Positions 5,851-28,239 of a DNA stretch of 64,000 nt are shown in pieces. The stretch is taken from the NCBI RefSeq assembly GCF_036013935.1, contig NZ_CP107902.1, positions 5,117,001-5,181,000 of the forward strand. The letters run 5' to 3'. Made by a program: the position numbers and the translations under genes. The notes under the pieces are model-generated. The model had not been told where the DNA came from, did not search any database, and saw nothing but the letters and a program-made list of their open reading frames with translations. Positions within the stretch are counted from its first letter, which is position 1, and every line of letters begins with the position of its first letter. The stretch comes from Streptomyces sp. NBC_00461. GTDB taxonomy: Bacteria > Actinomycetota > Actinomycetes > Streptomycetales > Streptomycetaceae.

Positions 5851-8800
5851 TCACTCCAGATCGGGATGGATTCCGACGGGAGGGGCCGCCGGGCACGAAC
5901 CACTCTCGGAGCCGCAGATTTGTTGATCAATGCAGGTCAGAGCCGTAGACAACTCTTTGGGGGCGGACAGAGGGAGTTGTGATCCCGTGCTCATCTCCCG
6001 TTCATGGGGGAGGACGCGGAGGCCCGGTGACCGCTCGAAGCAGTGCGTCAGCGGTCGGTGCTCCGTGATGTGCCGCGGTGATGCGGACCAGGGGTGGTGC
6101 TGGGGGGTGGCCCTGGACGGCGTTCCGGAGGGCCGGGCGATCGGGTGCCCGCCATGGGCTCCGGTCTCTCGCGGTGCCCGCCGGGCGGGAGTTGCGGGCA
6201 TCGGTGTGCCGGTCCGTGCGGACCCCGACATGCCCGGCTCCTGCGTCCGCACGGGTGCCGGTGCCGGTGCCGGGTCGGAGTCCGTCGCCGGGCCGGTGGC
6301 GGGCAGGTCGCAGAGGTTGCGGTAGGGCACGTCGGGAAGGTAGGTGCGCCATTCGGTGCCGGAGAGGTCGCGTCCGGCCCGGGCGCAGAGCCGGGTGGCG
6401 ACCTGCGCGGGGGCGATGGCGTGCCGCTGGAGGGGGACGTGGCCGCCGCCGGCGTACAGGGAGCCCCCGTCCGCGCTGAAGGCGAGGGAGCGGATCGTGT
6501 CACCCGGGGTGTCGAGGCCGCCGCCGAGGGGCTGCCGGGCGGCGAGGTCCCAGAGCCGGAGGGCGCCGGAGCCGTATCCCACCGCGAGGGCACGGCCGTC
6601 GGGGCTGAAGGCGAGGGCGGTGACAGGGGAGCCGAGGGCTCCGGCGGGGGCCGGGACGACGGCCTCCCGTTGCCGTTCGCGGCGGCCGCGCCAGACGGTG
6701 ACACCGCCGGAGGGGCCGCCGACGGCCAGGCGGACGCCGTCGGGGCCGAGCGCGAGGACCTCCGCGCCGCCGAGCGGCACACCGGCGTGCAGTCCGAAGG
6801 GCAGGGCCGCGGCCGGGCCGGTGAAACCGGCGGCCAGGACGGACTTCACCGCCGCGGCCAGGGCGCCGGTGCGCGTACCCCGGGCGGTGTTCCACACCTC
6901 ACCGGTGAGCGAGCCGGTGGCCGTGGCCCGGGTGAGCAGGAGTTCCCGGCCGCCGGCGGTGAGCGCGATCGAGCGCACCTCCGGGGCGGACGGCTCCGCG
7001 GCCAGGCCGAGTTCGGCCTGTCTGTGACGGCCCGGCACGTCCCAGACCACGATCCGGGTGGCGGGCGCCTTCCGGGCGGAGGGGCCGCCGATGTCGTACG
7101 ACGGGACGGTGACGCCGTAGGAGAAGAACCGCCCGTCGGGGCTGAAGGCCATAAGCGGCCGCCCGTTCCCCGCCGGGGGAAGCCGGGCGAGGACCCGGCC
7201 GGTACCGGTGTCCCGGAGCTGGAAGCGGTAACCCCCTCCGTCGCGCTGGGCGGTGGCCAGCAGGCGGCCGTCGGGGCTGAGCAACTCACCGTCGAGCCGC
7301 CGGTCCTGCCACGCGGGGGTGAGCGGGGTCGAGAGGTCGAGCGTGTGGACCGTGCTTCCGGCGAGGTAGCGCAGGGTGGGGGAGCCGGGGTCCCAGGCGA
7401 GGGCGGTGACGGGCCCGTCGGCCAGGGGCCGGCCGAACACGGGCGCGTGCGGCGCCGTGAGCCGCCATACGGTCACCTCGCTCTGCGCGGCGACCGCGAG
7501 GAACCGTCCGTCGGAGGTGAAGGCGAGGGAGCGGCCGTCCGGCCGGGCGAGGTCGGCGAGTTGCCGCCCCGAGGCGAGGTCCCAGACGCGTACGCCGGTA
7601 TCCGTGACAGCGGCGAGTCGCGTCCCCCCGCTGTCGAACGCGAGGGACGAGCAGTCCACCGACGACGAGCTCCGCCAGGCCCCCCGCAGGGTGTGCCGAC
7701 GCACGAGATCCCGCACCGCGAGCAGCCGGCCCCGCGCGCACACGGCGGCCAGCCGGGCCCCCGCACTCGGCACGACGGCATCGGCCGCGGCCGTCTCGAA
7801 CAGCAGTCGGTCGTCGGCGAAGGCACGCAACTGGGTCGTGGAACCAGGGCCGTTCACGACGTAGCCGCTCCCGGCGGAGCGCAGACCGAAGCCCTGGCCG
7901 GCACCAGTGCCGCTGTCGCCGAGACCCGCGCGATCCGTGTCGGCCCCCGCACTACCGCCGGCCTCCGCGCCGTGGCCCCCATCCCTCGCGTCACTCCCAC
8001 CGGCCCCCGCGCCGTCACCACTGCCCCCGGTGAGCCCCTCGTCGCCCCCCTGCCCCACAGACAGACGCCACAACCGTTGCCCGCCCTCCCCGCCCAGCAC
8101 GAGGGTCTCCCCGTCAGGGCTGACCGCGCTCACCGGTGCGTCCGGCAGCCGCCCTGATCCGATGCGCCGGTGTGTGCCCACGTCCCAGGCCTCCCAGAGG
8201 CCGCCGCCCACGTCGAGCAGGGTGTGGCCGGAGGAGGTGAGGAAGTACCGGGAGCCGTTGCTCTGCCGGGGGACGGTGAAGGCGTCCCGCTCGGGTTCGG
8301 ACAGGGCGTCGTACAACGCGGCGCGGCTCTCGGGCAGCGGGGCCAGCCGCCAGGCGGCGATGCTGAGCAGGGTCCGGGTGCGGGGGTCGGCGGCCCCCCG
8401 GGGGTCGGCGAGGCCGGCCGCGAGGCGGGCCCCGGCGAGGGCCCGTTCCCCGTCGGCCACGCCCCGCTCGTGCCACGCGATCTGCCCGGCGACCAGCGCT
8501 CCACCGAGAACGCAGGACAGCGCGACGGCCAACATCCGTATCCGGCGCCGCATCCGGGCGGCCGTCCAGCGTTCCATGAACTCGGCGACGCGGGAGGCGC
8601 TGAGGAAGGCCCGCTCGCGCGCGGTGAGGTCGTCCTCGTGCGTGCCGCGGGTGAACAGCGCGTCGGCCATCGCGAGATGGACACCCCGGTACAAGGCGCC
8701 GGGGTCACGGTCGCGCTCCTGCCAGAGGCGGGCGGACTCGGTGAGGTGCCGGTGCAGGCGTAGCCGCTCGCGGTTCTCCTCGATCCACGCCCGGAGCCGG

Positions 8801-10092
8801 GGCCAGCCGGTGATCAGGGCCTCGTGGGCGAGCTCGACGCTCTCCTCGCCGAGGGTGACGAGCCGGGCGCACGCGAGGCGTTCGAGGACGACGGGCACCT
8901 CGGGGTCCGGCCACTCGCGCAGATCGGCGCGGCGAACCGGACGACCGCTGTCGGGGCCGCCGTCACCGGGGGCGACGAGCGTCAGCAGGAGCCGCCGGGC
9001 AGTGTCGGCCTGGCCGACGGAGAACCGGCCGTACACCTCCTCGGCCGCCGCGGCGATCGCCCCGTGGACGCCGCCGGCCGTCTCGTAGCCGGCCAGGGTG
9101 AGCACTCCGCTGCGTCTGCGCCGCCAGGTCTCCTGCAGGGCGTGCGACACCATCGGCAGGGCGCCGGGCCGGTCGGCGGCCTCCTCGACGATCCGTGCGG
9201 TGAGTTCCCGCTCCACCCGCAGGCCGACCGCCGTGGCCGGTCGGACGACGGCGTCCCGCAGTTCCTCCCGGTTCATGGCGGTGACGGTCAGGGTGGCGTC
9301 GCACAGGGCCTCCGCCAGCCCGGGGTGCTCGACGCACCGGTCGTGGTAGCCGCTGCCCACGGCGACGACCACCCGCAGGTTGGCGTCCGGCTCCCTGGCG
9401 GCCAGCAACTGCTCGACGAACCGCCACCGTTCGGTCCGGTCCCGGCAGAGCGTGAAGATCTCCTCGAACTGGTCCACCACGACCACGCGATGCGGCCCGT
9501 CCCGCCCGGGCGCCAGCATCCCTCCGTGGGTGGCCGCGGGCCGAGCGCTCGGCGTGATCAGCCGCACCTCCGCACCGCAGCCCATCTCCTGGACCAGGGT
9601 CTCGAGCCGGGGCGTCACCCCGGCCCGCAACAGGGAGGACTTGCCGCTGCCGGAAGCGCCGACCAGCGCCGCGAACCGGTGCTCCCGCATCAGCCGCACC
9701 GCGTCCTCGGACAGCCGGGCCCGCCCGAAGAACAGCTCCCGGTCCCCCGGTTCGAACCGCGCCAGCCCCTGGTAGGGCGACTCCCCCTCCGCCGGGCAGT
9801 ACGGCACCGTCTCCTCGGCCGCCGCCCGCAACCGCCTTTCCCATACGCCGGGTTCGGCACCGCACGCCCGCGCGTACGCCCGCACCACCGCCGCCGACGG
9901 CAACCGCTCCCCCGACGCGGCCCGCGACAGCGCGGCCACCGAGACACCGGCAAGCTCCGCCATCGCCCTGTACGAGGGGGACCCGGCGGCCTCGCGCAGT
10001 GACCGCAGCTCATGGGCGAAACACTGCACGGGCCCCGCATCGGGATCGAGGGGGCGTTCGGGCCGACCGGGCCGACGGCTGCTCTGTTTCAC
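5851..10092 (-). CDS. HTH - STAND NTPase - TM - WD40 protein (copy 1)
   Basis: A 1413-residue one-piece signalling protein. Residues 25-75 form an XRE-like helix-turn-helix. The STAND NTPase follows, with Walker A GASGSGKSS (145-153) and Walker B RVVVVDQFEEIF (~202-213). A membrane helix lies at 519-539 (MLAVALSCVLGGALVAGQIAW), and WD40 repeats (FSPDGR..., VWDLASGRQL) run from ~580 to ~1260. The conserved sensor stretch VRADFY of the paralogue at 22820 is GSGYHD here. After the last repeat (YRNLC) about 150 Pro/Ala-rich residues run on to 5851, where the paralogue simply stops, so the original stop may have been lost. It starts at GTG and shares RPERPLDP with its paralogue. Cellular role unknown. 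Confidence 0.88.
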   Translation of the reverse strand: MKQSSRRPGRPERPLDPDAGPVQCFAHELRSLREAAGSPSYRAMAELAGVSVAALSRAASGERLPSAAVVRAYARACGAEPGVWERRLRAAAEETVPYCPAEGESPYQGLARFEPGDRELFFGRARLSEDAVRLMREHRFAALVGASGSGKSSLLRAGVTPRLETLVQEMGCGAEVRLITPSARPAATHGGMLAPGRDGPHRVVVVDQFEEIFTLCRDRTERWRFVEQLLAAREPDANLRVVVAVGSGYHDRCVEHPGLAEALCDATLTVTAMNREELRDAVVRPATAVGLRVERELTARIVEEAADRPGALPMVSHALQETWRRRRSGVLTLAGYETAGGVHGAIAAAAEEVYGRFSVGQADTARRLLLTLVAPGDGGPDSGRPVRRADLREWPDPEVPVVLERLACARLVTLGEESVELAHEALITGWPRLRAWIEENRERLRLHRHLTESARLWQERDRDPGALYRGVHLAMADALFTRGTHEDDLTARERAFLSASRVAEFMERWTAARMRRRIRMLAVALSCVLGGALVAGQIAWHERGVADGERALAGARLAAGLADPRGAADPRTRTLLSIAAWRLAPLPESRAALYDALSEPERDAFTVPRQSNGSRYFLTSSGHTLLDVGGGLWEAWDVGTHRRIGSGRLPDAPVSAVSPDGETLVLGGEGGQRLWRLSVGQGGDEGLTGGSGDGAGAGGSDARDGGHGAEAGGSAGADTDRAGLGDSGTGAGQGFGLRSAGSGYVVNGPGSTTQLRAFADDRLLFETAAADAVVPSAGARLAAVCARGRLLAVRDLVRRHTLRGAWRSSSSVDCSSLAFDSGGTRLAAVTDTGVRVWDLASGRQLADLARPDGRSLAFTSDGRFLAVAAQSEVTVWRLTAPHAPVFGRPLADGPVTALAWDPGSPTLRYLAGSTVHTLDLSTPLTPAWQDRRLDGELLSPDGRLLATAQRDGGGYRFQLRDTGTGRVLARLPPAGNGRPLMAFSPDGRFFSYGVTVPSYDIGGPSARKAPATRIVVWDVPGRHRQAELGLAAEPSAPEVRSIALTAGGRELLLTRATATGSLTGEVWNTARGTRTGALAAAVKSVLAAGFTGPAAALPFGLHAGVPLGGAEVLALGPDGVRLAVGGPSGGVTVWRGRRERQREAVVPAPAGALGSPVTALAFSPDGRALAVGYGSGALRLWDLAARQPLGGGLDTPGDTIRSLAFSADGGSLYAGGGHVPLQRHAIAPAQVATRLCARAGRDLSGTEWRTYLPDVPYRNLCDLPATGPATDSDPAPAPAPVRTQEPGMSGSARTGTPMPATPARRAPRETGAHGGHPIARPSGTPSRATPQHHPWSASPRHITEHRPLTHCFERSPGLRVLPHEREMSTGSQLPLSAPKELSTALTCIDQQICGSESGSCPAAPPVGIHPDLE

Positions 10093-18863: not shown

Positions 18864-20051
18864 ATGCCGGGAACCGTGCTGTTGCTCGCCGCATCCCCGG
18901 CGGGCAAGGGCTGTTTGGTGGACGCGGCGTCCGTGCTCCCCGTACTCGCGGCGGTCCCGCCGGGCGTCCTGTCCGGGACGGAGACGGCCAACGTCGTCGA
19001 ACTCGCCGACCCGCTGGAGCCGCAGGCCGTGCTCACCCGGCTGCGGGCGGCCGCGGCTGCCCCCGGGCCGCTCACGGTCTTCGTCGCCGGACAGCTGCAA
19101 CTCGACCGGCGCCAGCGGCTGCCCCACCTGGCGCTGGCCCGCACGACGCCCTCGACGGTGCGCTACACGGCTCTGCCCTGGCACTGGATCCGGGAGGAAC
19201 TGCGGCTGCGCGCGGCCGGATCCACGACCCTCGTCCTCGACCTGCACGCGGACCACGAGACCTGGGAGTGGCTGCGGGCGAACCCGATCGACTGCGGGCG
19301 CAACAACGCCGTCTACGGGCGTATCGCGCCGCCGCCGTCCCGGCGCACGGTCGCTGTGCCGACGTATATGAAGGCCGTGGCGACGATCCTGCGCAGTGGC
19401 CACCGGCCCGAACTGGCGGAGCTGCATCAGCAGGCGTTGGCCCGGGTGGGCGTGGACGGGTATGCGGACCTCGTGCTGGCGGCGGCGGGTGTCGCGGGGG
19501 CCGCCGTCCCCGGGGGCTTCGCCCCCGGACCCCCGTACCGGCCTGAACGGCCTCGTCCTCAAACGCCGGACGGGCTGATTGACGGGCTGACTGATGCCGA
19601 CCGGCGCCACAGCGGTGCGGCCGGTGAGGGCGATCCGCACTCCGCCATCTCCGTCGCCGTCCGGTCCGGGCGCCATCCCGACGCCGATGCCCTCGCCGCC
19701 CACCACGAACAAGCCGCCGTGCAGGCGCACGGGCCCGGGTCCGAACAGGCCCTGCACTGGGCCGAGGTGCGGGCGGACCTGGCGATGTTCGCCGGGGATC
19801 CCTCGCGCAGCTGCCGTACCTGGCTGGGCGTGGCCGTCGCGCGGTTGTCGGCGGGGCAGGGCCCGGACACGGCAGCCGTCGAGGCGGCCGTGGACCGGGC
19901 GCACCACCAGTGGGGGCAGGTCCGGGACGCGACGGCGGCGCGGGAGCTCGGGGCGTCGCTCGCCGACCTGCGCGCCCGGGTGCCGGGGCGTCGGCAGGGC
20001 GCACTGGACCACGTCCAGCGACAGTTGCGGCAGCTGCAGACGCAGGGCTAG
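18864..20051 (+). CDS. Conserved hypothetical protein interrupted in-frame by a GC-rich repeat
   Basis: The 395-residue product starts MPGTVLLLAASPAGKGCLVD behind a good GGAGGGAACG ribosome site. The first ~215 residues resemble a Streptomyces protein with a caspase-like or nucleotidase-like alpha/beta core (LTVFVAGQLQLD, TTLVLDLHADHETWEWL). The last ~150 are helical (TPR-like: EQALHWAEVRADLAMFAGDP). The two parts are joined by PGGFAPGPPYRPERPRPQTP, which is the translation of a dispersed repeat (19504-19578), not of the ancestral linker. No motif gives a function. Its stop overlaps that of the convergent amidohydrolase. Confidence 0.75.
   Translation: MPGTVLLLAASPAGKGCLVDAASVLPVLAAVPPGVLSGTETANVVELADPLEPQAVLTRLRAAAAAPGPLTVFVAGQLQLDRRQRLPHLALARTTPSTVRYTALPWHWIREELRLRAAGSTTLVLDLHADHETWEWLRANPIDCGRNNAVYGRIAPPPSRRTVAVPTYMKAVATILRSGHRPELAELHQQALARVGVDGYADLVLAAAGVAGAAVPGGFAPGPPYRPERPRPQTPDGLIDGLTDADRRHSGAAGEGDPHSAISVAVRSGRHPDADALAAHHEQAAVQAHGPGSEQALHWAEVRADLAMFAGDPSRSCRTWLGVAVARLSAGQGPDTAAVEAAVDRAHHQWGQVRDATAARELGASLADLRARVPGRRQGALDHVQRQLRQLQTQG
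19504..19578. repeat. GC-rich dispersed repeat, copy B (in-frame inside a gene)
   Basis: Contains the hairpin CCCCGGGGGC-TTCG-CCCCCGG, then CCTGAACGGCCTCGTCCTCA and ACGCCGGACGGGCTGA. This is the same block order as the copy at 13158-13218. It sits in the coding frame of the hypothetical gene without a stop. Confidence 0.7.
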
Positions 20052-21464: not shown

Positions 21465-22241
21465 TCAGGCGTACGGGTCGAACGTGATGCCGCTCGGCTT
21501 GGCCTTGTTGAGGTGGTCGGCGAACTTGGCGTCCTGGAGCGGGAAGTTGGCGTTGCCCCAGTCGGAGGCGTTCAGGATGTCGCGGAGGTTGGACGCCAGG
21601 TTGTCCCAGGTGATCAGGTTCTCCTGGTGCCAGGCACCCGTGTCGTTCTCCGGCGTTTCGCCCCACTTGGCGAAGCGGAAGGCGTGGGTGGACGCGCCGT
21701 CCTTGTGGTAGACGGCCTCGACGCGCTGTCCGCTCATCGGCACGTCGGCGATCGGGTGCGTGCTGAAGCCGCCGTGGGCGGAGGCGGACAGGTACGACGG
21801 GGTGTCGGCGCCCTGCTTCACCCACACGACCATGCACTCCCAGTCGTGGCGGTGGCCGATGCCCGGCGATGCCTCGTCCTTCTCGAAGTAGCTGGCGTAG
21901 ACGATCCCGCACCAGCCGTTGTTGCACTTGGCCCGCGAGTAGGTGTTGGCCTGGCCGAGGTGGCCGGAGCGGCACTCGCCGGTGATCGGGCCGGTCGGAT
22001 TGAGGCCGCCGTTGAGGGTGCCGCTCGGGTCGATGGCGGCGGCCGGGTAGCAGCTGTCCGTGTCGTAGTCGTACAGGGGCTCGAAGTTCTTCTGGAACGC
22101 GGTCGCGTTCTCCGGCAGGTTCTGCAGCACGCCCGCCGAGGCGCTGCCCGGCAGGGCGAGGGCCAGGGCGGCGGCGCTGCCCGCGACGGCGGCGGCTCGG
22201 GCGAGGCGGGACGTCCTCGTGCTGGTGACTGCTCGGGGCAT
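21465..22241 (-). CDS. Secreted NLP (NPP1, necrosis/ethylene-inducing-like) protein
   Basis: 258 residues: a signal peptide to GSASA, then a mature NPP1 domain with the hallmark heptapeptide GHRHDWE (metal/lipid-binding centre) and paired cysteines (CYP...C, CNNGWC). Family members from plant-associated microbes bind plant glycosyl-inositol-phosphoryl-ceramides and lyse dicot cells; Streptomyces homologues are secreted but their targets are unproven. It starts at ATG 22241 with GGAG upstream, and the longer start at 22283 is unlikely. A two-part hairpin region follows. Confidence 0.93.
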   Translation of the reverse strand: MPRAVTSTRTSRLARAAAVAGSAAALALALPGSASAGVLQNLPENATAFQKNFEPLYDYDTDSCYPAAAIDPSGTLNGGLNPTGPITGECRSGHLGQANTYSRAKCNNGWCGIVYASYFEKDEASPGIGHRHDWECMVVWVKQGADTPSYLSASAHGGFSTHPIADVPMSGQRVEAVYHKDGASTHAFRFAKWGETPENDTGAWHQENLITWDNLASNLRDILNASDWGNANFPLQDAKFADHLNKAKPSGITFDPYA

Positions 22242-22391
22242 GGGGGGCTCCAGTCGACGGTCCACTCGTTCCGGACATGACATCCGGCAGGCGAGCCGAA
22301 GACTGGCAAGTCGAGCGTGGGACGGAAAGGCTTTTCTGCTAACTGGGGACGAGCTTTTGCCGAACTGATCAAGCCGATCGGGGAGAGTTGA

Positions 22392-22562
22392 TCAAGGCGG
22401 AACGATCGGGCAGGACCGGTCGACGATCCGCACCTGCCCCGCCCTGGTCGGGGCGGAGGCGGCCGTGGCGAGTGACGGCAGCCCGGACACCGCGATCACT
22501 GCGGCGAGCGCGGACGAGACGGTCACCCAGAAGCCGAGCCGGCGCAGGGTGCTGGTGGGCAT
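22392..22562 (-). CDS. Small secreted peptide upstream of the second STAND gene
   Basis: A 56-codon frame, MPTSTLRRLGFWVTVSSALA followed by more hydrophobic residues to LATAASA, then a short mature part APTRAGQVRIVDRSCPIVPP. It has a typical Sec signal with a single Cys near the end. GGAGGAG lies about 12 bases upstream of the ATG. It is divergent from the HTH-STAND-WD40 gene starting at 22820 and is followed by the NLP gene. The family is not recognised. Coding status is inferred from the signal-peptide pattern and ribosome site. Confidence 0.6.
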   Translation of the reverse strand: MPTSTLRRLGFWVTVSSALAAVIAVSGLPSLATAASAPTRAGQVRIVDRSCPIVPP

Positions 22563-22819
22563 GGGGTTGGGTTCTCCTCCACTGCGGACCCCGCGACCGC
22601 GGGGGGATCGGCCGGTGCCACGACCGAGACTCGCAAGGGAGGCGTTGATCGGCAGCCCCTGTTCGCCGGGGAAATCAACCTGTGACGCGAAAAGCACGGT
22701 GACATGAAACCGTCCCCTCCACCCACCCGTCATCCTCGTTGCACTCGACGGTTTCCTGGCGACCCGTACGGTCATCGCTCCTGATGTCGCTCTCGCCAGG
22801 TCTACGGAGGTAGGAGCGC
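22563..22819. promoter_or_regulatory. Divergent promoter region, peptide / STAND copy 2
   Basis: 257 bases between the peptide start and the STAND start. It ends in the very strong ribosome site GGAGGTAGGAG ahead of ATG 22820. No gene is seen, and no clear operator was found. Confidence 0.4.
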
Positions 22820-25800
22820 ATGGGGCGTCCCGAGAGACCGCTGGACCCGCAGGCCGGTCCCGTGCAGCGGCTCGCGCACGATTTGCGGGAGCTGCGCCGG
22901 ACCGCCGGTGGTCCTTCCTACCGGGCCATGGCCAAGGTGGCGGGCTTCTCCGCGACAACGCTGTCACAGGCCGCCGCCGGCGAGCGGTTGCCGTCCCTCG
23001 CCGTCGTCGAGGGATACGTGCGTGCCTGCGCCGGCGACCCCTCCGAGTGGGTGCCCCGCTGGAAGGAAGCGGAGGAGGAGGCGAGCCGGGCCCCCGTCGA
23101 GCCCGACGAGGACGCGCCGTCGCCGTACCGGGGCCTGGCCCGCTTCGAACCGGCCGACCAGCATCTGTTCTTCGGCCGGGACCGTGTGGTCGACGAGGTC
23201 GGGAAGTTGGTGTGCGAGCACCGGTTCGCGGTGCTGTTCGGCCCCTCGGGCAGCGGGAAGTCGTCCCTGCTGCGGGCCGGACTGATCCCCCGGCTTCAGG
23301 CGGAGATCGCGGACCGCGGCTGTCCCGCCACACTGCGCATCCTCACCCCCGGCCCGACGCCCGCCGCGACCTACGGCCACCTTCTCGCCCCGGCCGACGA
23401 CGAGCCGGAGAGCTGGGTCGTCGTCGACCAGTTCGAGGAGGCCTTCACCCTCTGCCGCGACCCGCGGGAGCGCTCACGCTTCATCGACCTGCTGCTCGCC
23501 GCCCGCGACCCGGCCAGCAGGCTGCGCGTGCTGGTCGCCGTACGCGCCGACTTCTACACCCGCTGCGGCGAGCACCGGGAACTGGCGGACGCGTTGCAGG
23601 GTGCCGCGCTGCTGCTCGGCCCGATGACCGCGGAGGAGCTGCGGGAGGCGGTGGTCGGACCGGCCCAGGCGGTCGGCTGCCTCGTCGAGCGGACGCTGAC
23701 CGTCCGCCTGGTGGACGAGGTCCTCGACGAGCCCGGCGGCCTGCCGATGCTCTCGCACGTCCTGCTGGAGACCTGGCGCCGCCGCAAGGGCCGGATGCTC
23801 TCCCTCGCCGGATACGAGGCCGCCGGCGGAGTGCGCGGCGCGATCGCGGCGAGTGCCGAGGAGGTCCACGGCGGCCTGTCGCCGGCCCAGGCCCGCACCG
23901 CGCGGCATCTGCTGCTGCGCATGGTCGAGCCCGGCCAGGGCACCCCCGACACCCGGCGCCCGCTCAGCCGGCCCGAGCTGGAGGAGTGGGCGGACCCGGA
24001 CGTGCCGGTCGTCGTGGAACGGCTCACCGGCGCCCGGCTGCTGACCGCCGACGAGGACGGCGTGCAGCTCGCCCACGAGGCGCTCATCACCTGCTGGCCC
24101 CGGCTGCACGGCTGGATCGAGCAGGACCGCGAACGGCTGCGCCACCACCGGATGCTCGCGGACGCGGTCCGCACCTGGCTGGAGCACGACCGCGACCCCG
24201 GCGCCCTCTACCGGGGCACCCGGCTGGCCCGCGCCGAGGAACTGTTCCCCGACCATCCGACCGACCCCGCGCTGACGGCGCCGGAACGCTCCTTCCTCAC
24301 CGCCTCGTTCGAGGTCCGCGAGACGGAGGTGCTGGCCGCCGCCCGGATCAGCCGCAGACACCGCATCCTGACCGCGTCGCTGTCCGCGGTCGTCGCGGTC
24401 GCCCTGCTGACGGGCTTCGCCGTCTGGCGCGAGTACACGGACAACCAGCGGCAGCGCACCCAGTCCGCGGCCCGCCGCGTCGCCGAGATCGCCGACGCGC
24501 TGCGCACCACCGACCCGCGCACCGCGCTGCTGCTCGGCGCCGCCTCCTGGCGCGTCGCCGAACTGCCCGAGACCCGCCGCGCGCTGCTCGGCTCCCTCGC
24601 CCAGCCGGAGACGGGCACCTTCACCGACCCCGCGCCCGGCGACGAGACCCAGCGCACGCTCGCCGACACCGGGCGCGTCCTGCTCAGCGCACAGGGCCGC
24701 TCCTGGCGCACCTGGAACGTGACCACGCACCGCGCCGTCGGCTCGGGCCGGGTGCCCGAGGGCACCGTCGGCGGGGCCGGCCCGGACGCCCGGGTGTTCA
24801 GGGTCGACATGCCCGACGGCGTACGGCTGTGGGACACGGCCACCGGCCGCTGGACCGGCGGATCCCAGGCCGTGCACGGCGTCGGTGACCTCTTCTTCAC
24901 CGGCGACGGACAGTCCTTCCTGACCACCGAGGGGGACCGGCTGCGGCTCCGCTCGGTCACGGACGGCCGCGTGCTCTTCGACACCCCGGCACCCGACGCC
25001 GCGATGACGGCGGTGAGCGGCGACGGACGGCTCGCGGCCGCCTGCGCCAACGGGGGCACCCCGCAGGTGTGGGACACGTCCGCGCACCGCGTGGTGACCG
25101 GCGCCTGGCAGCACGACCACGTCTGCGAGGAGGGCATCGGCACCTTCCTCGTGCTCGCCGGCGACCGGCTGGCCGCCGCCACCGGCACCGGGGTCCGCAT
25201 CTGGGACACCCGCACGGGCCGGCGGATCGCCGACCTCGACGACCCCGGGGTGCAGTACGCCGCCTTCAGCCAGGACGGCGCCTTCCTGGCGACCGCCGAC
25301 CGTACGGAGATCCGGGTGTGGCGCCTGGCGGCCACCGACGCACCCGTCTTCCGCTACGCACTGAACAACCAGCACCTGCGCCGCGACCCGGTCTGGGACC
25401 GGGACGGCCGCATCCTGCGCTATGTGGAGGGCGGCACCGTCCACACCCTCGACCTGCGGGAGGCCGTCACCTCCGGCTGGCGCTCCACCCCGGCGTCCGA
25501 CGTGCGGTTCAGCCCCGACGGCCGCACCTACGCCACCGCCGAGCGCACCGGCGACCGGTACGTCTTCCGGCTCCACGCGACCACGGACGACCGCGTCCTG
25601 CGGACCCTGCCACCGGTACGCGTCCCCGTCTCCAAGGACCCCACCCTGCCCGCCGTCCCCGCCGACACCCTGTCGCTGGCCGCGTTCAGCCCCGACGGCA
25701 CCCGCTTCGCGTACGGCGTCTCGGCGCCCGGCCGACTGGTCGTCGCGCAGCCGGTCCACATCTGGGACGTGCCGCACGGGCGGGCCGTGACCTCGCTGGA

Positions 25801-26536
25801 CCTGCCTGGCGGGGCGCTGATCGACATCGCCCTCGGCCCGGACGGCCGCACCCTGAGCGCCGCCCGCACCCCGGACATCGGCGACCTGGCCGACGAGGTG
25901 TGGGACGTCTCGCGCCGGCACCGTACGACGGTCCTGAACGGCGTGACCGGCAGCCACCTCGCCGTCCGCCCCGACGGAGAGCTGCTGGTCGGCGATGGCC
26001 GGGCGGTCCGCCTGCCCTCGGGCCGGGCCGGCGGACACGACCTCGTGCAGGGCGACGAGACCGGCGCGCTGGCCTTCACCGCCGACGGCTCCCTGCTGGC
26101 GGCCGGCGACCAGACGGGACGGGTCGCCCTGTGGGACGGGGACCTCGCCCACCGCGAGGGCGTTCTGCGCAGCGTCTTCCCCGCCCCGTACGGCACCGAC
26201 CCCGAGGGCGTGAGCGCGGTCGCCTTCAGCCCCGACGGGCGCACGCTGGCCGTCGGCGGGGCCGCGGGCAGCCTCCAGCTGTGGGACGTGGCGACCGAAC
26301 AGCCCCTCGGCGGCCCGCTGACCACGGCGGGCGACGCGATCGACTCACTCGCCTTCGGCTCCGACGGCAGGACCCTGTACGCCGGAAGCGCGCACGTTCC
26401 GCTCCAGCGGTACACGGTCGACCCCGAGCAGGCGCTCCGGGCGGTGTGCGCGCGGGCGGGCGGCGCCGAACTGACGCGGGCGCAGTGGCGGACGTATGTG
26501 CCGGAGGCGCCGTACCGGACGGTGTGCGGGGGCTGA
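22820..26536 (+). CDS. HTH - STAND NTPase - TM - WD40 protein (copy 2)
   Basis: 1238 residues with the same architecture as the 5851-10092 gene. HTH at ~15-65 (MAKVAGFSATTLSQAAAGER); Walker A GPSGSGKSS (141-149); Walker B WVVVDQFEEAFTLC (~199-212); the sensor VRADFYTRC (241-249) is intact. A membrane helix lies at 516-536 (ILTASLSAVVAVALLTGFAVW), then WD40 repeats with WD-containing strands (IWDTRTGRRIADL, LWDVATEQPLGG) to the end, WRTYVPEAPYRTVC. The expected topology places the HTH and NTPase inside and the propeller outside. Function is unknown; it is a candidate one-component receptor that signals to DNA. Small secreted peptides lie on both sides. Confidence 0.9.
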   Translation: MGRPERPLDPQAGPVQRLAHDLRELRRTAGGPSYRAMAKVAGFSATTLSQAAAGERLPSLAVVEGYVRACAGDPSEWVPRWKEAEEEASRAPVEPDEDAPSPYRGLARFEPADQHLFFGRDRVVDEVGKLVCEHRFAVLFGPSGSGKSSLLRAGLIPRLQAEIADRGCPATLRILTPGPTPAATYGHLLAPADDEPESWVVVDQFEEAFTLCRDPRERSRFIDLLLAARDPASRLRVLVAVRADFYTRCGEHRELADALQGAALLLGPMTAEELREAVVGPAQAVGCLVERTLTVRLVDEVLDEPGGLPMLSHVLLETWRRRKGRMLSLAGYEAAGGVRGAIAASAEEVHGGLSPAQARTARHLLLRMVEPGQGTPDTRRPLSRPELEEWADPDVPVVVERLTGARLLTADEDGVQLAHEALITCWPRLHGWIEQDRERLRHHRMLADAVRTWLEHDRDPGALYRGTRLARAEELFPDHPTDPALTAPERSFLTASFEVRETEVLAAARISRRHRILTASLSAVVAVALLTGFAVWREYTDNQRQRTQSAARRVAEIADALRTTDPRTALLLGAASWRVAELPETRRALLGSLAQPETGTFTDPAPGDETQRTLADTGRVLLSAQGRSWRTWNVTTHRAVGSGRVPEGTVGGAGPDARVFRVDMPDGVRLWDTATGRWTGGSQAVHGVGDLFFTGDGQSFLTTEGDRLRLRSVTDGRVLFDTPAPDAAMTAVSGDGRLAAACANGGTPQVWDTSAHRVVTGAWQHDHVCEEGIGTFLVLAGDRLAAATGTGVRIWDTRTGRRIADLDDPGVQYAAFSQDGAFLATADRTEIRVWRLAATDAPVFRYALNNQHLRRDPVWDRDGRILRYVEGGTVHTLDLREAVTSGWRSTPASDVRFSPDGRTYATAERTGDRYVFRLHATTDDRVLRTLPPVRVPVSKDPTLPAVPADTLSLAAFSPDGTRFAYGVSAPGRLVVAQPVHIWDVPHGRAVTSLDLPGGALIDIALGPDGRTLSAARTPDIGDLADEVWDVSRRHRTTVLNGVTGSHLAVRPDGELLVGDGRAVRLPSGRAGGHDLVQGDETGALAFTADGSLLAAGDQTGRVALWDGDLAHREGVLRSVFPAPYGTDPEGVSAVAFSPDGRTLAVGGAAGSLQLWDVATEQPLGGPLTTAGDAIDSLAFGSDGRTLYAGSAHVPLQRYTVDPEQALRAVCARAGGAELTRAQWRTYVPEAPYRTVCGG

Positions 26537-26600
26537 ATGCCTCGCCCTCCCGCCATCAGGAGGGCTGCCTGAAGGGCTGTCGGAGGTCCGGTCCGGAGGA

Positions 26601-26765
26601 CTACCCGGAGGTGGTGCTGATGCCGACCGCGGCCGGGGCCTGCGGCTGCTCGGTCGCCGCCCTCGCCGGGCCCGCGTTCGCCGCCAGGACCAGGGCCGCC
26701 ACGGCGACGAGCGCGGCGGTGAAGCCTCTGGTGTAACGCCCAGTGGTGCCCGTGCGTTCGAGCAT
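26601..26765 (-). CDS. Small secreted peptide downstream of the second STAND gene
   Basis: 54 codons: MLERTGTTGRYTRGFTAALV and further hydrophobic residues to ANAGPARA form a signal peptide, leaving a mature ATEQPQAPAAVGISTTSG of about 18 residues. GAGG sits 7 bases before the ATG, and just upstream lie 10-bp iterons and a palindrome. An in-frame ATG at 26822 is possible but adds Cys-rich residues. The family is not recognised. It mirrors the peptide on the other side of the STAND gene in size and layout. Confidence 0.55.
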   Translation of the reverse strand: MLERTGTTGRYTRGFTAALVAVAALVLAANAGPARAATEQPQAPAAVGISTTSG

Positions 26766-26783
26766 CGCGACCTCGCAACAGCA

Positions 26784-26813
26784 GCGAAGAACAGGGAAGA
26801 ACAGCGAAGAACA
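26784..26813. repeat. Three 10-bp iterons
   Basis: GCGAAGAACA, GGGAAGAACA and GCGAAGAACA follow one another at exact 10-bp spacing, one helical turn each. They lie in the leader of the small peptide gene and next to the palindrome at 26821. Confidence 0.7.
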
Positions 26814-26820
26814 GCAATGC

Positions 26821-26836
26821 ATTAAGCATGCTTAAT
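26821..26836. promoter_or_regulatory. 16-bp perfect palindrome (operator candidate)
   Basis: ATTAAGCATGCTTAAT is a perfect palindrome and unusually AT-rich for this genome. It is 60 bp upstream of the XRE-TPR regulator GTG and 56 bp upstream of the divergent peptide ATG. It is well placed as the operator of that regulator. Confidence 0.65.
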
Positions 26837-26895
26837 CCGCGGTTTAACCTAGGGGTCGGCGAGGGTGAACGGCAAGAGGGCCAGGGGGAGTTGGC

Positions 26896-28239
26896 GTGTC
26901 GGAACGTGACGATCCGGTGACCATCGGGCGCAGAGTGCAGCAACTGCGGGCCGAACGAGGACTGACACAGAGGCAGTTGGCGGAGCCCGCCTACACCCCC
27001 GCGTACATCTCCACCCTGGAGGCCGGACGGGTGCGGCCCTCCGACGGCGCGCTCAGGCACATCGCCGAGCGCCTCGGGATCGCCTACGACGAGCTGGTCA
27101 CCGGGCGCCCGGCCCGTCTCGCCACCGACCTGCGGCTCAGGCTGACCGAGGCACAGCGCACGCTCGCCTCCGGGGAGGCCGAACGGGCCGCGGAGCAGTA
27201 CGCGGCGCTGCTCGCCGAGGCCGAGGAGAACGAGCTGACCGACGTGGCGGCCGTCGCGCTGCTCGGTCTCGGCGAGTGCGCCCTGGACACCGGTGAACTG
27301 GCCGCCGCCCGGCGGTTCTTCGAGCGCACCGAGCAGGCCCTCGCCGACGTTCCGCTGCCCGCCCGGGTACCCGCCCTGCGCGGCCGCGCCGTCTCCCACT
27401 ACCTGGCCGGTGAACTCCGCTACGCCGTCTACCTGCTGGAGTCCACGCTCGACGAGCTCAACCGCGGCGGACTGCACGATCCGGACGCGCTCCTGCTGCT
27501 CTACGCCAGCGTCATCGGCCCTTACATGGACATGGGCGCCCACGCCCGGGCCGCCCAGGCCGCCGAGTTCGCGCTCGCGCTGGCCCCGCAGTCCGGCGAC
27601 CCGGCGCTCGTCGCCCGTATGCACCGCTCGGTCGCCCGCACCCTGCTCGCCGAGGGCCGCATCAACGAGGCCGACGCCTCGCTCGCCAAGGCCGCCGAGC
27701 TGTACCGGACACTCCAGCTGCGCACCGAGCTGGCCAACTGCCATTGGATGCGCGGATACGTGTGCGCGCAGAACGGCGAACTGGAGCGCGCGGAGGGCGA
27801 GTTGAGGCAGGCGCTCACCATGCTCTGTGCCAAGCGCGCCGCCCTCTACAGCAGCCAGGTCGCCGTCGAACTCGCCGACGTACTGCACCGGCGCGGCAGG
27901 TCCGACGAGGCCGCGGCCCTCCTGCACGACGTGCTCAGCGACCTCAGCCCCGAACGCGGCGCCCTGCACTCCGCCGCCGCCCACCGCCTCCTCGGCATCA
28001 TCGCCGAGGACACCCGCGACACGGAGGCCGCCGAGGAGCACTACGTCCGTGCGCTGAGTCTGCTGGAGCGGGCCGGTGCCGCCGGCGACCTGGCCGACCT
28101 GTGCCGGCTGCTCGGCGATCTGCTGCGCCGTACCGGCCGGGTGGAGGCGGCCCTGGACGCGTACCGGACGGGCCTCGGCCACCGTACGGCCCCCGGCACC
28201 ACCACCCTCGGCCCCGCACCCGCACAGCCTCCTCTGTGA
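26896..28239 (+). CDS. XRE-family HTH regulator with TPR repeats
   Basis: 447 residues. The N-terminal Cro/C1 HTH (IGRRVQQLRAERGLTQRQLA ... YISTLEAGRVRPS) is followed by roughly eight TPR-like helical pairs (AERAAEQYAALLAEAEENEL, AEEHYVRALSLLERAGAAGD). This layout is shared by peptide-responsive or metabolite-responsive regulators such as the RRNPP group, though membership cannot be claimed from sequence alone. It starts at GTG with GGGGGAG upstream. The adjacent small secreted peptide gene, iterons and palindrome make a local peptide-regulator circuit conceivable. Confidence 0.88.
   Translation: MSERDDPVTIGRRVQQLRAERGLTQRQLAEPAYTPAYISTLEAGRVRPSDGALRHIAERLGIAYDELVTGRPARLATDLRLRLTEAQRTLASGEAERAAEQYAALLAEAEENELTDVAAVALLGLGECALDTGELAAARRFFERTEQALADVPLPARVPALRGRAVSHYLAGELRYAVYLLESTLDELNRGGLHDPDALLLLYASVIGPYMDMGAHARAAQAAEFALALAPQSGDPALVARMHRSVARTLLAEGRINEADASLAKAAELYRTLQLRTELANCHWMRGYVCAQNGELERAEGELRQALTMLCAKRAALYSSQVAVELADVLHRRGRSDEAAALLHDVLSDLSPERGALHSAAAHRLLGIIAEDTRDTEAAEEHYVRALSLLERAGAAGDLADLCRLLGDLLRRTGRVEAALDAYRTGLGHRTAPGTTTLGPAPAQPPL

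Follow-up and report, generated by a model that had tools for sequence, protein, structure and literature searches.

A conserved divergent pair of a short leader-peptide gene and an XRE-TPR regulator gene in Streptomyces: a candidate RRNPP/SHP-like peptide switch

This analysis deals with two divergent genes of Streptomyces sp. NBC_00461, one encoding a peptide of 54 amino acids (P2) and the other an XRE-type regulator with tetratricopeptide repeats (TPR). They lie in a stretch of 64,000 nucleotides, referred to as the window (G000:C1:5117001-5181000), the close relatives of which carry Streptomyces names. An earlier, sequence-only reading of this DNA had put a neighbouring gene for a STAND protein in the centre, as a receptor with P2 and a second tiny open reading frame (ORF), P1, as its peptides; an XRE-TPR regulator behind a palindrome was mentioned there in a side remark, and it was this remark that in the end named the main feature. 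The two tiny ORFs, iterons, the palindrome and the regulator gene are all present in the window as described. The pair and its intergenic region comprise:

26601-26765, minus strand: P2, a 54-amino-acid ORF convergent with the STAND gene, with a basic/hydrophobic leader, an L..AANAGP core, an AxA-type site and a variable tail
26821-26836, no strand: 16-bp perfect palindrome ATTAAGCATGCTTAAT between P2 and the regulator gene, likely operator
26843-26855, plus strand: conserved element TTTAACCTAGGGG, a probable component of the regulator's promoter, at a distance of 21 bp from where the palindrome starts
26896-28239, plus strand: XRE-TPR regulator of 447 amino acids, a helix-turn-helix (HTH) domain followed by nine predicted TPR helix pairs

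A match to the regulator at E <= 1e-60 was found in 192 of 295 genomes of the genus. Stretches of about 8 kb were taken around 100 of the 118 matches with at least 80% identity (counted by hand among the matches listed) and searched with a P2 leader profile, 13 seed stretches of which were drawn from genomes within this 100-locus set. In 99 of the 100 loci a divergent P2 homologue is located at most 2.2 kb upstream of the regulator gene, and P2 is present at all 80 regulator loci of named species, which overlap with the set. Of the 18 listed matches left out of it, 17 gave a P2 match, and the remaining one, in G032, also has P2; a partial match of 82% identity in G292 was likewise excluded. 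As a conserved element at regulator loci P2 is beyond chance. Since P2 occurs at 99 of the 100 loci, a STAND homologue at 14 of them (E < 1e-20; the upstream stretches searched were at most 4.5 kb long), and P1 is private, the conserved unit in Streptomyces is the divergent gene pair of P2 and the XRE-TPR regulator, and the STAND gene is a separate, occasional neighbour. Wherever a name is shown for the 93 P2 homologues besides the window's own entry, it is hypothetical or uncharacterized.

The sole locus of the 100 without P2 (L166) has an M64 peptidase gene in its place, with the same kind of palindrome alongside. L308 seemed to lack P2 in a flank of 1.5 kb; in a longer stretch P2 (49.7 bits) and the palindrome were found about 1.8 kb away behind inserted genes, one of them a short ORF that presumably resembles DUF397 proteins. 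Inserted genes also separate P2 and regulator in L077, L084 and L349, where the palindrome remains beside P2; the insert in L349 includes an HTH regulator. In L182 (G022:C158) P2 is retained and the regulator is reduced to its last 22 residues beside it. A further 27 within-genus loci added for odd matches (L310-L316, L319, L326-L331, L334-L336, L182-L185 and others) include loci with a truncated, split or HTH-less regulator match at which P2 is present (L310, L313, L314, L327, L329, L334, L335, several of them two pieces of one genome) and loci without P2 (L311, L312, L315, L316, L319, L326, L328, L330, L331, L336). In L311-L314 (G488, G377, G205, G176) no part of the regulator before residue 68-71 is matched, which looks like loss or replacement of the HTH; of these four loci L313 and L314 have P2, L311 and L312 do not. 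Outside the genus no P2 was found in flanks of about 1.5 kb at the same-family locus L317 or at the sister-family loci L318, L320-L325, L332, L333 and L337.

The conservation of P2 resides in its leader. Over 100 copies, those of 99 relatives plus that of the window, A17 is found in 100, A18 in 98, A21 in 94 and L25 in 100, followed by A28 (96), A29 (92), N30 (90) and P33 (98). In 31 pairs the core had a ratio of nonsynonymous to synonymous substitution rates (dN/dS) of 0.23 and the tail one of 0.53. Only pairs with alignable tails entered this comparison, a choice in the tail's favour; for the core, 1500 random pairs gave 0.33. The signal peptide of a lipoprotein from the same loci served as control (44 of 53 loci with a match were used). 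Mean pairwise identity over the 44 loci, computed ignoring phylogeny, was 0.67 for the P2 core against 0.31 for this control, values of 0.23 and 0.16 being expected from composition alone. Conservation of the P2 leader is about double that of an ordinary signal peptide encoded at these loci. With the best start taken for each, 99 of the 100 P2 copies have a ribosome-binding site of 4 nt or more in front; among 2000 random ATG/GTG codons 295 do.

Since P2 is tiny and adjoins a conserved operator candidate, the ORF could act in cis, as a translated leader or as an antisense element of the divergent promoter region, with the peptide itself being irrelevant. Against this stands the finding that the invariant residues are encoded by varying codons, A17, for example, by GCC in 50, GCG in 40, GCA in 8 and GCT in 2 copies. 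Moreover, no gene of the same direction follows P2 in the window, the STAND gene there being convergent with it. We consider an action in cis very improbable.

The sequence-only reading had seen the signal in a mature tail of 18-20 residues. Most P2 copies keep, as judged by eye, an AxA-type site followed by a tail, and their length ranges from 32 to 109 amino acids (median 57, 99 copies), at least one copy exceeding 100. The tail, however, is variable, and in nine of the 99 relatives' copies (L114, L125, L133, L148, L157, L159, L161, L163, L165) the peptide ends within about two residues of the core. On the regulator tree these tail-less copies fall into two clades, with support of 0.965 and 0.998, and the larger group around them includes copies with a tail as well. 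Because the tail is absent in two clades it cannot be the shared functional part, and the mature secreted tail was therefore rejected as the shared signal; it could still have a lineage-specific role.

At 89 of 101 loci (the 100 plus the window) the palindrome TTAAGCNNGCTTAA, up to two mismatches being allowed, is found between P2 and the regulator, versus none of 101 equal control stretches inside the regulator gene; its occurrence there is beyond chance. The element TTTAACCTAGGGG is present within two mismatches in 78 of the 101, and its spacing to the palindrome is 21 bp in 83. The palindrome is likely to be an operator. An exact copy occurs once in the genome of 10.4 Mb, and no site with one mismatch exists; from this we take the circuit to be probably a local one, in which the regulator would control P2 and its own gene. 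With respect to a wider regulon, 18 genomic sites were counted at up to two mismatches versus 40 for a backwards control, the weaker sites being without signal. Upstream of the regulator and near its start, part of the loci (L010, L018, L022, L030 and the tail-less clades) have a second element similar to GTAAGTCGGCTTACTGGCATGATTAAG, which itself contains a short palindrome and is possibly an alternative promoter.

The regulator contains a TPR_12 domain (51.1 bits, cut-off 30.1) plus other TPR matches in Pfam, and its structure model shows nine helix pairs. A profile search of the PDB matched it to PlcR (E 7.5e-6) and ComR in the HTH only, and no NCBIfam model scored above cut-off; we have not assigned it to one of the named RRNPP subfamilies (Rgg, PlcR, PrgX, NprR, Rap, ComR). 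In a TPR superhelix the A helices line the concave face. In the regulator the polar residues of the A helices are more conserved than those of the B helices (permutation p 0.004).

What faces the regulator where P2 is missing? In a class of about 70% identical regulators the leader profile found P2 in none of 15 loci; the divergent gene carries an M64 peptidase motif in 12 of the 15, is alpha/beta hydrolase-like in L172 and L173, and in L177 is neither. An S33-like gene lies opposite the regulator in seven of the eight genomes of the sister family (f3) with a regulator match (L318, L320-L325). Four genes for secreted M64 or S33-like peptidases, divergent from P2-less relatives of the regulator, gave the following Pfam matches:

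L166:3101-4324, minus strand: peptidase-type gene, M64
L170:3141-4361, minus strand: peptidase-type gene, M64
L173:3202-4401, minus strand: peptidase-type gene, Abhydrolase/S33-like
L318:134-1333, minus strand: peptidase-type gene, Abhydrolase/S33-like

In this XRE-TPR family a position opposite genes for exported or peptide-processing enzymes may be widespread. From the M64 gene opposite the regulator in most of the 70% class (as in L170) and in P2's own place in L166 one could conclude that a secreted M64 peptidase was the ancestral target and that P2 is the stub of its lost gene, of which leader and promoter remain. Homology of P2 to M64 leaders was tested and not found, the P2 profile giving no match (best score 0.7 bits), and neither a core dN/dS of 0.23 nor presence in 99 of 100 loci is like a decaying stub. 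We regard this origin as improbable.

The same neighbours suit an explanation in which P2 is an effector, a small peptide, membrane-bound or secreted, and the XRE-TPR protein sets its expression upon sensing another ligand, such as peptides of the medium: if the relatives face secreted peptidase genes, the regulator may simply control an exported product. The basic N-terminus and conserved hydrophobic core would suit a membrane protein of small size, most of all in the clades without a tail, and G022 keeps P2 without the regulator. Against it speak the AxA-type site and tail in most P2 copies and, in the regulator, the conservation of polar residues that face the predicted groove. That P2 is such an effector seems to us unlikely, if worth serious consideration.

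We propose, with a probability of roughly 0.45, that P2 and the regulator form a peptide switch like those of the RRNPP/SHP type, the predicted TPR groove binding a fragment of the conserved leader as its ligand. In this switch the leader would put P2 into the membrane. Signal peptidase would cut those copies that have an AxA site, and a short peptide from around L..AANAGP would be freed by an intramembrane protease of the Eep/S2P type. The peptide would then act in the cytoplasm, directly or after re-import, and on binding would alter the occupancy of the palindrome by the regulator and hence the expression of P2 and of the regulator itself. Four of the five published RRNPP criteria (PMC10075063) describe the pair: a propeptide of 10-100 amino acids (P2 in the window has 54), a receptor of 250-500 amino acids (447), TPRs in the receptor (TPR_12, nine modelled helix pairs) and adjacency of the genes (they adjoin in the window; at 99 of 100 loci they are divergent and at most 2.2 kb apart, with inserts between them in a few). 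As to the fifth, secretion by Sec or likeness to SHP, a basic N-terminus, a hydrophobic core and an AxA-type site were judged by eye.

The regulator model resembles NprR and Rap with a target-normalised TM-score of 0.67, which speaks for the switch; it resembles generic TPR proteins as well, so that the fold match is not exclusive. The peptidase neighbours fit peptide sensing and just as well a response to nutrients, in which P2 would be an altered target.

The features from which the sequence-only reading had built its circuit, apart from P2, are:

22820-26536, plus strand: HTH-nSTAND1-transmembrane-WD40 protein of 1238 amino acids, a neighbour outside the conserved P2-regulator pair
22392-22562, minus strand: P1, a 56-amino-acid ORF, signal-peptide-like by eye, divergent from the STAND gene and not conserved
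26777-26814, no strand: three iterons spaced 10 bp, private to this genome among the 101 compared

The architecture given for the STAND protein was borne out by Pfam and by motifs in the translation. HTH_31 covers residues 17-76 (E 1.7e-7) and nSTAND1 (PF20703) residues 102-460 (E 5.3e-122, 408.5 bits, cut-off 27.1); GPSGSGKSS, VVVDQFEE and RADFY, among them the Walker motifs, can be read in the translation, and the C-terminal half has WD40 signatures. The single membrane helix is likewise supported: one strongly hydrophobic stretch begins at residue 516 (mean KD19 2.14; next-best region 1.12), and a helix is found at about residue 510-518 in nine of 11 orthologue loci, the sequences of the other two ending before this position. 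The N-in topology that had been predicted is compatible with the Arg-rich N-terminal side of the helix. In its nSTAND1 domain, HTH start and WD40 end the protein is like known HTH-nSTAND1-WD40 proteins, compared with which it shows nothing unusual, and no link to P1 or P2 was seen.

P1 and P2 as peptides of this STAND protein did not hold up. An ATG preceded by GAGGAG opens P1, which has the appearance of a signal peptide with a short tail. At the 11 orthologous STAND loci, the conservation test that the sequence-only reading had itself set, P1 found no match below E 0.001 and none in its position, and in 289 other Streptomyces genomes there were nine weak matches (E 0.001-0.01), none convincing. 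P1 is private, and its presence is not beyond chance. P2 accompanies the XRE-TPR gene with or without a STAND gene nearby, 85 of the 99 P2-bearing loci having no STAND homologue in the up to 4.5 kb examined. The STAND-centred circuit was dropped for these reasons; architecture and predicted topology as described notwithstanding, we give it hardly any credence. The suspicion of a peptide-sensing circuit is itself supported, with P2 and the XRE-TPR regulator as the candidate in place of STAND and its two peptides. The iterons were rejected as a conserved element: in the 300 bp before the regulator the unit GAAGAACAG occurs in the window and in none of the 100 relatives. In L017 there is a different short repeat before the regulator.

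The genome contains four strong nSTAND1 matches, and a second nSTAND1 protein is encoded in the window at 5851-10092 (minus strand). The protein encoded at 18864-20051 (plus strand) has a weak match, below cut-off, to the model of an EACC1-associated caspase; an ORF that starts with MPGTVLLLA, as this protein does, lies upstream in a cluster found at 60 of the 101 regulator loci. A PADLOC scan for defence systems gave no match to the STAND gene or the 18864 gene; the assignment to a defence system was dropped, the matches to the regulator being at the HTH level only. Adjoining P1 at 21465-22283 (minus strand) is a gene for a secreted-looking NPP1-family protein (Pfam, E 8.9e-57).

In the Rgg/SHP systems the genes shp and rgg are arranged divergently. 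The P2-regulator pair is like these streptococcal members of RRNPP in that an XRE-type HTH and helical-repeat receptor stands beside the gene of a very short, basic-then-hydrophobic peptide. It differs in being found in Streptomyces rather than Firmicutes, in the canonical, Pfam-detectable TPRs of the regulator, in the AxA-type site and tail of most P2 copies, and in a sequence match to the regulator that is limited to the HTH. SHP activity resides in the C-terminus of the peptide and needs Eep and Opp, according to PMC3150281. The activating peptides of the enterococcal PrgX type are, as described in PMC7564271, parts of lipoprotein signal peptides, from which signal peptidase and Eep produce the mature form. 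In P2, too, the signal-peptide part is the conserved part; unlike these pheromones, P2 has no lipobox and is not a lipoprotein leader, the gene being apparently dedicated to the leader alone. In NprR-NprX and Rap-Phr of Bacillus the signal derives from the secreted tail, whereas the tail of P2 is variable or absent.

The RRNPP screen of PMC10075063 covers Firmicutes and viruses, and in PMC9765709 neither Actinobacteria nor Streptomyces occurs; the studies consulted put RRNPP signalling in Firmicutes. Our literature search, which covered few subscription papers, found no title or opening abstract describing the P2-regulator pair. To our knowledge the sequence of the signal oligopeptide imported by BldK is unsettled. 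Its import in Streptomyces triggers development and antibiotic production, as stated in PMC11303876. That the pair is a genus-wide pheromone circuit of the RRNPP/SHP type, with a near-invariant signal-peptide fragment (approximately L..AANAGP) as the message and the XRE-TPR protein as cytoplasmic receptor, is the most far-reaching form of our proposal and appears doubtful to us. If it is true, RRNPP/SHP signalling would extend from Firmicutes to Actinobacteria, with a bare leader as a dedicated pheromone gene, and the oligopeptide signals that Streptomyces imports in development could include the P2 peptide. A named candidate pair of receptor and peptide, with a likely operator and invariant residues, makes direct tests in Streptomyces possible.
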